A program made the position numbers and the translations under genes. The notes beneath the pieces are model-generated. The model saw only the letters and a program-made list of their open reading frames with translations, was not told where the DNA came from and did no database searches. This document shows positions 61,062 through 64,000 of a DNA stretch of 64,000 bases, piece by piece. How positions within the stretch are numbered: the first letter of the stretch is position 1; each line of letters starts with the position of its first letter. Origin of the DNA: an uncultured Gemmiger sp. (GTDB taxonomy: Bacteria; Bacillota; Clostridia; Oscillospirales; Ruminococcaceae); contig CALXHP010000002.1 of assembly GCA_944388135.1 (NCBI GenBank), forward strand, positions 83,633 to 147,632. The letters run 5' to 3'.

Positions 61062-61325
61062 TTACTCGGCAAAGCCGGAGCTGACCAGCTTGACCAGACC
61101 GTCGACCGCAGCCTGCTCGTCGGCGCCATCGGCAATGATGCGAATGGTCGTGCCGCCCACGATGCCCAGGCTCAGAACACCGAGCAGGCTCTTGGCGTTG
61201 ACGCGGCGCTCCTCTTTCTCGACCCAGATGGAGGACTTGTACTCGTTCGCCTTCTGGATGAAGAAGGTAGCCGGACGGGCGTGCAGACCAACCTGATTCT
61301 CAACGGTAACTTCTTTCACGTACAT
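61062..61325 (-). CDS. ptsH: Phosphocarrier protein HPr
   Basis: 87 residues. Carries phosphate from enzyme I to the sugar-specific EII proteins. His15 in GLHARPAT is the phospho-acceptor; Ser46 in NAKSLLGVL is the regulatory HprK/P site of Firmicutes. No ptsI follows. The enzyme I-like protein in this window (28588-30171) has altered active-site motifs, so the partner may be that protein or a ptsI elsewhere. AGGAGAG precedes the ATG; own promoter at 61429-61457. Confidence 0.97.
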   Translation of the reverse strand: MYVKEVTVENQVGLHARPATFFIQKANEYKSSIWVEKEERRVNAKSLLGVLSLGIVGGTTIRIIADGADEQAAVDGLVKLVSSGFAE

Positions 61326-61574: not shown

Positions 61575-62804
61575 TTATTTTGCCTCGTAACGCAATTTTA
61601 ATTCCTGGCAATAGACGGCAGAAGTAGGGTCGGTTTCCGGGTCATAAATTGCTTCCACGCCGGCAGGGCGCCAGCCCATCCGCCGGTACAGTGCCAGCGC
61701 CCGGGTATTGGTATCCAGCACCGTCAGGGTGGGATGCGCATGTTCCGGCAGCTTTTTGCGGGCAAAGTCCAGCATCTTGGTGCCGATGCCCTTGCCCCGG
61801 GCTTCCGCCGTCACGAACAGGTGGCTGATCTGCCCCGTCTTGTGGCAAACCCCCACCAGACCGTCCGCCGCGTCCTTGGTATAATGCAGGTAGAAGGCCC
61901 AGCCGTTTTGCCGGTCTGCCGCCAACTCTTCCCGGCAGTGCTCCGGCGTAAGGGTATCCAGGTACAAGGGAGTACAGACCTTCTCACACACCGCATACCG
62001 GCCTTCGGCAAACAGCCGGGCCGCGGCCGCCCACTGTTCGTCGGTTTTTACAAGACGCATATTTTCCCCGCGCTTCCACTTGGGCAGCTCGGTAATGGGA
62101 TGGGTGTCGCACCACTGTTCATAGAGGTCGGGGCGGCGCAGCCGGGTGCGGGTGCGGCTTTGTTCCCCCCGCCAGGCATCGATCTTCTGGTGGTCGCCGG
62201 TGAGCAACACCGGCGGCACCGGGCGCCCTTCCCACACTTCGGGGCGGGTATACTGGGGATATTCCAGCAGACCGTCCCAGTAGCTTTCGTCCTGGTAGCC
62301 CTTCTCCTCCGCCAGCACGCCGGGCTGCAGCCGCAGCACACTGTCCGCCACCACCAGGCTGGCCAGTTCCCCGCCGGTGAGCACATAGTCCCCGATGGAG
62401 ATTTCCTCGTCCCCGAAGGCGTCGATCACCCGCTGGTCAATGCCCTCATAGTGGCCGCAGACCAGCGTCAGGGCATCGTATTGGGCAAGGCGCTTGGCGG
62501 TTTCCTCGTTGTAGGGCTGGCCTGCCGCCGTGAGAAACACCACATGGGGCTTGGCCCGGCCCTGCCCGGCACATTGCTGCTGCACCGCCCGCAGGCAGTC
62601 GGCGATGGGCTGGGCGTAGAGCACCATACCGCAGCCGCCGCCATAGGGGTAGTCATCGGTCTGCCGCTGTTTGTTGGTGGTGTAGTCCCGGATCTGATGG
62701 CAATGGGCTTCAAACAGATTTTTGGCCCGGGCCCGGCCCAGAATACTGGCCGAGAGAAAGCTGTCACACAAGTCGGGAAAGAGCGTCACAATGTCAATGC
62801 GCAT
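61575..62804 (-). CDS. trmD: tRNA (guanine37-N1)-methyltransferase fused to a GNAT acetyltransferase domain
   Basis: 409 residues; TrmD alone is about 220-250. Residues 1-235 are a complete TrmD with the trefoil-knot SAM site (LVCGHYEGIDQRVID, 114-128; ISIGDYVLTGGELA, 135-148), which methylates G37 of tRNAs reading CNN/GGN codons. Residues about 249-405 form a GNAT domain: VTAEARGKGIGTKMLDFARK (331-350) binds acetyl-CoA, and NTRALALYRRMGWRPAG (366-382) closes it. No stop or frame change lies between. An ATG at residue 249 (62060-62058) follows GGGGAAAA, so a separate GNAT could also be made internally. Substrate of the acetyltransferase unknown. Three bases after rimM. Confidence 0.95.
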   Translation of the reverse strand: MRIDIVTLFPDLCDSFLSASILGRARAKNLFEAHCHQIRDYTTNKQRQTDDYPYGGGCGMVLYAQPIADCLRAVQQQCAGQGRAKPHVVFLTAAGQPYNEETAKRLAQYDALTLVCGHYEGIDQRVIDAFGDEEISIGDYVLTGGELASLVVADSVLRLQPGVLAEEKGYQDESYWDGLLEYPQYTRPEVWEGRPVPPVLLTGDHQKIDAWRGEQSRTRTRLRRPDLYEQWCDTHPITELPKWKRGENMRLVKTDEQWAAAARLFAEGRYAVCEKVCTPLYLDTLTPEHCREELAADRQNGWAFYLHYTKDAADGLVGVCHKTGQISHLFVTAEARGKGIGTKMLDFARKKLPEHAHPTLTVLDTNTRALALYRRMGWRPAGVEAIYDPETDPTSAVYCQELKLRYEAK

Positions 62805-62807
62805 GGC

Positions 62808-63338
62808 TTACTCCTTGTCGCCGTTGACGGCCTCGGTAAACATGCCGTCAATGGGGGTCACCGTGATGGTGCGGTTTTCCACATCAATGTCCCGCACAAA
62901 TTCCGGCACGGCGGGCAGCATATGGGTGCCGCCTTCCCCGTCGGTGACGGTGTAGATATCCTGGGCGGCGGGATGATCCACCGCTGTCAGGGTGCCGTAT
63001 TCCCGGCTGGTATCGGCATCCACCACCCGGCAGCCCAGCAGATCGTCGATGAAGTAGCGGCCTTTGGGCAGACGGGCATCCGCCTTGGCAAAATAGTAGG
63101 TACGCCCTACCTGGGCACGGGCGGCATCCATATCCGCCACACCGTCCAGACGCAACAAAATCACATTGCCCTGGGCGCGTACCCCCAGCACCCGCACTTC
63201 CCCGGTACCGTCGGCTTTGGCGAAAAGCCGCTTGAATTTGGCCAGAAACGCCGCGCCGTCACACAGGGGCAGCGCTTTCATCTCGCCCCGCACCCCGTGG
63301 GTGGAGACGATCTTGCAGGCGGGAAGATAGTTCTGCAT
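62808..63338 (-). CDS. rimM: Ribosome maturation factor RimM
   Basis: 176 residues from MQNYLPACKIV, 7-8 bases after GGAAGG. It binds S19 and helps assemble the 30S head. N-terminal barrel (about 5-85: ACKIVSTHGVRGEMKALPLC) and C-terminal PRC-like barrel (about 95-165: YYFAKADARLPKGRYFIDDL, LGCRVVD). Operon order rpsP-khpA-rimM-trmD. A hairpin terminator lies just upstream (63394-63430), so khpA and rimM may be partly uncoupled. Confidence 0.95.
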   Translation of the reverse strand: MQNYLPACKIVSTHGVRGEMKALPLCDGAAFLAKFKRLFAKADGTGEVRVLGVRAQGNVILLRLDGVADMDAARAQVGRTYYFAKADARLPKGRYFIDDLLGCRVVDADTSREYGTLTAVDHPAAQDIYTVTDGEGGTHMLPAVPEFVRDIDVENRTITVTPIDGMFTEAVNGDKE

Positions 63339-63393
63339 AGTTGTTTCAACCTTCCGTTTGAATGAATCCAACGGGCAAAAAGTGCCCGGCATA

Positions 63394-63430
63394 CAAAAAA
63401 GCACTCTGCCAAAACGGCAAAGTGCTTTTG
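63394..63430 (-). terminator. Intergenic terminator or attenuator between khpA and rimM
   Basis: AAGCACTCTGCC with GGCAAAGTGCTT (400-411 with 417-428, one mismatch) and TTTTTTG on the minus strand. Inside an operon it would lower downstream expression. Confidence 0.75.
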
Positions 63431-63434
63431 GCTT

Positions 63435-63668
63435 TTAGTCGATCTCGACGATGACTTTCTCGCCCTGGCGGACCGCAGCAGCACGCATGACAACGCGAAT
63501 GGCTTTGGCGATCCGGCCCTGCTTGCCGATGACGCGACCCATGTCGGCCTCGGCCACTTTGAGGTGATAAACGACGGTGCCGTCCTCACGGGCGGGGTCA
63601 ACGGTCACCTGCACGGCCTCCTTGTCCTCGACGAGGCCGCGGGCAACGGCTACTAAGAGTTCCTGCAT
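63435..63668 (-). CDS. khpA: KH-domain RNA-binding protein KhpA (YlqC)
   Basis: 77 residues. A single type II KH domain with the G-K-Q-G loop in RVIGKQGRIAKAIRVVMRAA. KhpA with KhpB binds many RNAs and affects cell elongation and division in Gram-positive bacteria. Conserved between rpsP and rimM. ATG after AGGGAGG. Confidence 0.94.
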   Translation of the reverse strand: MQELLVAVARGLVEDKEAVQVTVDPAREDGTVVYHLKVAEADMGRVIGKQGRIAKAIRVVMRAAAVRQGEKVIVEID

Positions 63669-63703: not shown

Positions 63704-63943
63704 TTACAGAACAGCAGCCTTCTTCAGCAGCTCACGGACGGTGTCGGTGGGCTGAGCGCCGTTAGCGAGCCACTGCTTGGCCTTGTCGGCATCGATGCTC
63801 ACAACGCTGGGCGCCTTGGTGGGATCGTAGTAGCCGATCTCCTCGATGAAGCGGCCATCACGGGCAAAACGGCTGTCGGCAACAACCACACGGTAGAAGG
63901 GAGCCTTCTTGGCGCCCATACGGCGCAGACGAATCTTAACCAT
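63704..63943 (-). CDS. rpsP: 30S ribosomal protein S16
   Basis: 79 residues from [20 protein letters not shown], eight to nine bases after GGAGG; the five extra upstream codons overlap the RBS. S16 is an early-assembly 16S rRNA-binding protein. It heads the rpsP-khpA-rimM-trmD run. The promoter (often shared with ffh) lies outside the window. Confidence 0.97.
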
Positions 63944-64000
63944 TGTAAATTCCTCCAAATACTTGTTTACGGCCCTTGCGGGGCGAATTTTATATTGTAC

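Follow-up and report, generated by a model that had tools for sequence, protein, structure and literature searches.

A TrmD-GNAT fusion gene in Gemmiger and the recurrence of acetyltransferase domains at the C-terminus of a tRNA methyltransferase

Most bacteria cannot do without the tRNA methyltransferase TrmD, which also serves as a drug target. In a stretch of 64,000 nucleotides from an uncultured Gemmiger sp. (the window, meaning the whole stretch analysed), trmD continues in frame into a GNAT acetyltransferase, which raises the questions of whether the fused protein is real, how it arose and what its second domain does. The features concerned are as follows.

61575..62804, minus strand: trmD-GNAT fusion gene, 409 aa, a single open frame with an ATG start
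62100..62804, minus strand: TrmD (m1G37 tRNA methyltransferase) domain, residues 1-235 (PF01746, NF000648, TIGR00088)
62064..62099, minus strand: linker, residues 236-247 (alignment of 44 fused homologues)
61590..62063, minus strand: GNAT acetyltransferase domain, residues ~248-405 (PF13673, PF00583, PF13508 and structural model)
62058..62060, minus strand: ATG at residue 249, proposed internal start (codon comparison, 44 homologues)
61782..61799, minus strand: acetyl-CoA loop RGKGIG, residues 336-341 (loop pattern by alignment column)
61686..61688, minus strand: Tyr373, at the usual GNAT general-acid position (alignment of 44)
62808..63404, minus strand: rimM, directly upstream of trmD-GNAT (PF01782, PF24986)
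63435..63668, minus strand: KhpA-like KH protein (PF13083)
63704..63958, minus strand: probable rpsP (ribosomal protein S16), presumed from its own sequence and its customary operon position
61062..61325, minus strand: HPr (ptsH-like), the next gene downstream (PF00381)

The original prediction that one uninterrupted frame joins a TrmD to an acetyltransferase was borne out, both domains of the minus-strand protein scoring over curated cut-offs. The ATG follows the stop codon of rimM by 3 nt and is closely preceded by AAGGAG; uvrC is also located downstream, with HPr; and the window's own genome, which is 83% complete, contains one TrmD match. An antisense open frame of 543 codons runs over trmD and rimM (61734-63365, plus strand), and because the window holds many long antisense frames, it is most likely an effect of codon usage.

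In the Pfam scan, PF01746 matched residues 23-225 (E 1.7e-56; 191.5 bits against a cut-off of 27.3), and among the NCBIfam models TIGR00088 reached 280.2 bits against a cut-off of 195, with NF000648 likewise over its cut-off. The nearest solved structure to the TrmD half was 3ky7, the TrmD of S. aureus (1.4e-65), and the fold-search alignments gave approximately 42% identity to the solved S. aureus and H. influenzae enzymes. Residues G117, H118, Y119, E120, G121, I122, D123 and R125, together with G138, D139, Y140 and L142-E146, were invariant in the alignment of the 44 fused homologues, as were W243, K244, R245 and E247 of the linker. We take GHYEGID.R and the GDYVLTGGE region to be the TrmD knot and SAM-site motifs. 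The general base of E. coli TrmD is presumably Asp169; at the position that we assign to it, Glu was found in 44/44 fused proteins and in 16/16 unfused ones of Faecalibacterium, and the 193 other loci had Glu in 106 and Asp in 3, with 84 unmatched by the pattern. The TrmD part of a full-length structural model was poor, and the best 50 matches shown in a fold search with that model were all TrmD structures; the GNAT half was thus re-modelled alone.

For the GNAT half, PF13673 reached 45.4 bits over residues 285-384 (cut-off 23.6), PF00583 scored 40.0 against 20.7, and PF13508 was the third Pfam GNAT model over its cut-off. By alignment column, the loop pattern [RQ]xxGx[GA] was kept in 44/44 fused homologues (43 in a cruder count), and the column of residue 373 held Tyr in 42, Phe in one and Leu in one. 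A general-acid role of this tyrosine in related GNATs is described in the accessible parts of PMC4964394 and PMC10416765. Modelled on its own with AlphaFold, the GNAT gave a confident structure (pLDDT 94.9, pTM 0.88) whose top PDB matches were acetyltransferases, the nearest folds being PaiA (1tiq, TM 0.75, 18% identity) and LcGNAT (8osp, TM 0.76, 12%). PaiA 1tiq was also the nearest solved sequence by profile (1.5e-9), and LcGNAT is, according to the accessible part of PMC10416765, a canavanine acetyltransferase. The window protein drew no match at E 0.001 to the PaiA equivalog NF053587, whose cut-off is 250 bits. The best NCBIfam GNAT match was TIGR01575, the RimI model, and an identity as RimI was rejected at 38.8 bits against a cut-off of 86.4; this cut-off was passed in none of 35 Gemmiger genomes, so that the model may also miss the RimI of the genus itself.

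The dN/dS of the GNAT part was 0.05-0.16 between the window gene and its eight nearest usable relatives, and the medians, calculated only for pairs passing a divergence filter, were 0.41 in Gemmiger (356/435 pairs) and 0.24 in Faecalibacterium (80/91 pairs). The corresponding values for TrmD were 0.12 and 0.05, indicating that the GNAT part evolves faster than TrmD. Every pair used gave a GNAT value below 1 (maximum 0.86), and with synonymous sites close to saturation, the values can be trusted no further than their order of size. These ratios indicate that the GNAT domain is under purifying selection.

A full-length fusion frame occurred in 32 of 35 Gemmiger genomes, the window's own included, at 67-100% identity; two more (G312 and G320) had fragments spanning the TrmD-GNAT junction, and in G302, which is 82% complete, no TrmD match was found. 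Among 31 Faecalibacterium genomes, 14 carried the fusion and 16 an unfused TrmD, and G330 was broken at a contig end; 15 of the 16 unfused proteins end in a C-terminal tail that contains 7-9 lysines and arginines. In the TrmD tree, the 44 full fusions analysed grouped as a single clade (95/95). Because the parts are joined in both Gemmiger and Faecalibacterium, the fusion withstands the doubts that a stop or frameshift might lie between the domains or that close relatives might always hold them apart, and a sequencing, assembly or annotation artefact is exceedingly improbable, with nothing found in its favour and the same frame in 32 of the 35 Gemmiger genomes, including G220 and G326, each a single contig. 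A fused acetyltransferase had also been called unusual, which agrees with the sample of 297 genomes of the family, where six of the matches listed span both domains (one from Faecalibacterium and five from Gemmiger, the latter being all the members of that genus drawn).

Less remained of the proposal that the ATG at residue 249 allows the GNAT part to be made separately. That ATG is present in the window, following GGGGAAAA, as read directly, and it is what speaks for two proteins from one gene, with internal initiation yielding a free GNAT. The corresponding codon was ATG in 13 of the 44 fused homologues, GTG in one and no start codon in the other 30, making the two-protein arrangement very improbable; a conserved internal start was thus rejected.

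How the fusion arose is suggested by the next gene. In 21 of 22 relatives (9 fused and 13 unfused), an HPr frame was visible, opening 155-269 nt past the trmD stop over the same range with or without the GNAT part, and in most the uvrC start was visible beyond it. The GNAT reading frame was therefore added downstream of trmD, ahead of the HPr gene, in the lineage of Gemmiger and Faecalibacterium. The closest free relatives of the window GNAT found in 197 genomes of the order both belong to another family, f14: a free protein of 177 aa (L174; 83 bits to the window GNAT), and an Orn/Lys/Arg decarboxylase whose C-terminal part is a GNAT (L175; 81 bits), encoded at L175:118-1920 of G421.

The gene trees of the two genera disagreed. 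In the rimM tree, the fused Faecalibacterium grouped with 12 unfused ones (100/99) and with all 16 (98/85), and their grouping with Gemmiger was rejected (p-AU 0.003). In the GNAT tree, the fused Faecalibacterium were nested inside Gemmiger (99/95), and a Gemmiger-only clade was rejected (p-AU 0.04). The TrmD tree leaned to the same nesting (97/98), the alternative being kept at p-AU 0.51, or 0.44 with the 12. These topologies suggest that the fused gene may have passed laterally between Gemmiger and Faecalibacterium, an older gain of the fusion followed by losses being a possible alternative.

A GNAT gene standing beside trmD was rejected as the usual precursor, because just 2 of 144 unfused loci had a clear GNAT frame in the 1500 nt beyond trmD (some genomes counted twice; 123 with at least 1400 nt of downstream sequence), with a weak match at L217. 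The two clear frames open 738 nt downstream of trmD in L285 (G932) and 12 nt past its stop in L257 (G862), and they possibly represent states before fusion or after fission.

The original prediction called for C-terminal GNATs among TrmD homologues to be sought and mapped on a phylogeny, and that search uncovered several separate fusions. Besides the Gemmiger-Faecalibacterium lineage (A), 24 of 150 genomes of family f14 (lineage B), including that of the query L043, matched both domains of L043, with G1047 in pieces, and free GNAT homologues among the matches listed for the family were 30-42% identical to its GNAT. Lineage C, the genus g144, has fusions of 377 aa in four genomes (G371, G438, G508 and G410), with no TrmD match found in the remaining two; in its sister genus g159, TrmD was unfused in 4/4 genomes, three of which had a free GNAT homologue on another contig. 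A single case came from Eisenbergiella porci (L077), and family f31 contributed the rare cases G658 and G907, two among 78 genomes of which 75 had a match.

The GNAT tree placed lineages A, B and C in three separate groups with strong support, and each lineage grouped with free relatives of its own, A joining its relatives more weakly (94/64) and B having fused and free GNATs intermixed; a clade of A plus C was rejected (p-AU 0.00012). On a TrmD tree of 132 rows built by a quick method, a count of changes in the GNAT-fused label, losses included, gave seven with degraded copies excluded, eight with these as a separate group and nine with these counted as fused, five being forced by strongly supported branches. 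On this comparison of sequences, the TrmD-GNAT pairing is real and recurrent, and different GNATs have been added to the C-terminal end of TrmD in three lineages that lie well apart, along with three single or rare cases, which is convergence. The strict loop pattern is not kept everywhere: it is found in 10 of the 24 lineage B fusions, in many of which the loop ends in Ser, not Gly/Ala, and no loop pattern is seen in five related C-termini (L055, L205, L289, L291 and L292), whereas L287 and L286 show it once. No GNAT model scored over its cut-off on L055, L205, L286, L291 or L292.

Random draws of genomes allowed the frequency of such fusions to be gauged. TrmD was present in 151 of 162 genomes drawn from the class, and among the matches listed (a few weak ones lying outside) there were 14 frames longer than 310 aa besides that of the window, two long upstream only and 12 with extra C-terminal sequence. 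The 12 comprised two GNATs (G658 and G371), one GNAT remnant (G366), four cysteine desulfurase-like domains, four C-termini with no assigned family (all from family f44) and one phosphatase with a partial TrmD. The phylum draw, with TrmD in 161 of 164 genomes, added eight frames longer than 320 aa on the same basis, of which four were true fusions, all to PF09936. PF00583 matches averaged 13.6 per genome (range 2-50) in 41 genomes of the class, which corresponds to approximately 0.6% of genes at an assumed density of 0.95 genes per kb. With a GNAT share of 0.6-2%, the binomial tail for two GNATs in at most seven fusion events is 0.0008-0.008, a crude, post hoc figure that rests on our own event count and ignores the general readiness of GNATs to fuse. 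The recurrence of GNATs as TrmD partners thus appears unlikely to be due to chance.

TrmD had been described in the original prediction as a single-domain protein, which does not hold for every homologue, as TrmD-Tm1570 fusions (PF01746-PF09936) are described in the accessible parts of PMC11187310 and PMC1829167, and other kinds of partner were found here. The four TrmD-Tm1570 fusions of the phylum sample were L218, L221, L222 and L223. A cysteine desulfurase-like domain (PF00266) follows TrmD in proteins of ~615-640 aa at L109, L208, L210, L211 and L212, and L040, L079 and L080 were judged by eye to be of the same kind; seven such rows formed one clade on the TrmD tree, and the domain of L109 was closest to NifS/IscS models, below their cut-offs. 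One TrmD (L227:521-1909, G099) carries an MTA/SAH nucleosidase (168.6 bits on TIGR01704, cut-off 73.8), an enzyme that would remove the methyltransferase's own inhibitory product, and another (L228:511-1701, G088) an ASCH domain (PF04266, 4.6e-24), which is possibly RNA-binding. Approximately 90-290 extra C-terminal residues, with no family over cut-off, were present in L204, L206, L207 and L209 (family f44), L056 and L258. At L214:1749-3212 (G620), a partial TrmD match and a tyrosine phosphatase domain (PF13350) share one open frame, which may be real or an effect of assembly or frame. Fusions of TrmD are thus known as a kind, and the combination with a GNAT is one for which we found no description among the papers of the open literature that were listed (in one case 12 of 248), judging by titles, opening lines of abstracts and passages; nor did any of three papers listed for TrmD with a cysteine desulfurase appear to describe that fusion.

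Considering these results, we propose that the window protein works as a bifunctional enzyme, its GNAT acetylating an amine that it encounters in the translation apparatus, a reading to which we give a probability of roughly 0.4. The original prediction had suggested a tRNA base or a ribosome-assembly protein as a possible target of the acetyltransferase. The TrmD half would form the usual homodimer and make m1G37 in tRNAs carrying G36G37, and the GNAT half would bind acetyl-CoA and acetylate a primary amine. The C-terminal part of TrmD lies near the tRNA in known TrmD-tRNA structures, so that a tether there would place the acetyltransferase beside the tRNA and the translation machinery; the likeliest substrate would be an amine found there, whether in TrmD or a ribosomal protein (a lysine or the N-terminus) or on the bound tRNA. 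We favour this bifunctional enzyme because the fusion is conserved, the GNAT is under selection, the loop and tyrosine are kept, the fold is confident, GNATs recur as partners and, in G862, a GNAT frame opens just 12 nt past the trmD stop. Against it we count the readiness with which GNATs fuse in general, the 16 unfused Faecalibacterium TrmDs that do without a GNAT, the faster evolution of the GNAT part, the capture of different GNAT subfamilies, which need not share one substrate, and the closest homologues found, one lone and one linked to a decarboxylase, which point to small amines. Catalysis, moreover, need not always be kept, given the C-termini in which the loop pattern is missing and its looseness in lineage B.

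Nearly as likely is a tethered amine acetyltransferase, in which the GNAT would go on acetylating a small amine as its free ancestor did (a polyamine, an analogue of an amino acid or something similar), the fusion doing no more than assure its expression from the essential trmD operon. This possibility comes close behind, since small amines are suggested both by the nearest folds and by the homologue linked to a decarboxylase; PaiA acetylates polyamines and LcGNAT is near too, free and fused GNATs intermix in lineage B, and HPr adjoins trmD whether or not the GNAT is there. With that position of HPr in view, the original prediction's further suggestion, that the two domains may simply share a place in the operon, is also possible. 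It leaves the recurrence of GNATs as TrmD partners unexplained, however, and the resemblance to PaiA is weak, NF053587 being unmatched by the window protein and giving 22.6 of the required 250 bits on the free homologue L174. Rather unlikely is a GNAT that is no longer an enzyme and acts as a sensor or scaffold, its binding of acetyl-CoA tuning TrmD or its presence stabilising the dimer. Such a role would suit the five fusions that persist without the loop pattern and has a parallel in TrmD-Tm1570, in which, according to the accessible part of PMC11187310, TrmD alone kept 86% of the activity on tRNA-Leu and the second domain adds little, but the lineage of the window keeps the loop in every fusion and the tyrosine in all but two. 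Less probable still is that TrmD has repeatedly become an enzyme for both methylation and acetylation on tRNA, its GNAT acetylating an amine carried by TrmD's own substrates, the Pro, Leu and Arg tRNAs with G36G37. The product might be an acetylated nucleoside close to the anticodon that has yet to be described; alternatively, aminoacyl-tRNAs that are mischarged or unwanted might have their amino acid acetylated as quality control. If so, selection for methyl/acetyl coupling on tRNA would explain why unrelated GNATs were captured convergently.

Under the favoured bifunctional reading, a conserved second enzyme on TrmD in gut commensals may link tRNA methylation to acetylation, and this link is testable through natural comparisons among several independent fusions, GNATs that stand free and sister genomes in which TrmD is unfused. 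As the TrmD C-terminus also accepts cysteine desulfurase-like, MTA/SAH nucleosidase and ASCH domains, it may mark functional partners of m1G37 methylation. The interest lies more in the convergence than in the single gene.

Compared with single-domain TrmD, the window protein has the same full domain over curated cut-offs and the same place after rimM, and differs in its extra GNAT domain of 170 residues. It also has Glu at the position that we assign to the E. coli general base Asp169, a Glu that is common to its unfused relatives. Its C-terminus shares the GNAT fold with RimI, the S18-alanine N-acetyltransferase, though it scores far under the TIGR01575 cut-off. PaiA, a spermidine/spermine acetyltransferase, and LcGNAT are among its nearest folds, whereas both are free enzymes of low identity to it, and we know of no tRNA partner of either. 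TmcA is an acetyltransferase acting on a tRNA nucleoside, and neither it nor AcpA of V. cholerae is, to our knowledge, fused to TrmD. The accessible part of PMC10962704 names AcpA as the enzyme responsible for the acetylated acp3U of tRNA. The two set a precedent for the acetylation of tRNA nucleosides, and they are placed beside the window GNAT by description. A related architecture is TrmD-Tm1570 (e.g. 8b1n), a fusion with an active TrmD and a partner of unclear role according to the accessible part of PMC11187310; there, as in the window protein, a C-terminal partner follows a complete TrmD, but that partner is a second SPOUT methyltransferase (PF09936, not found in the Pfam scan of the window protein), whereas here it is an acetyltransferase.
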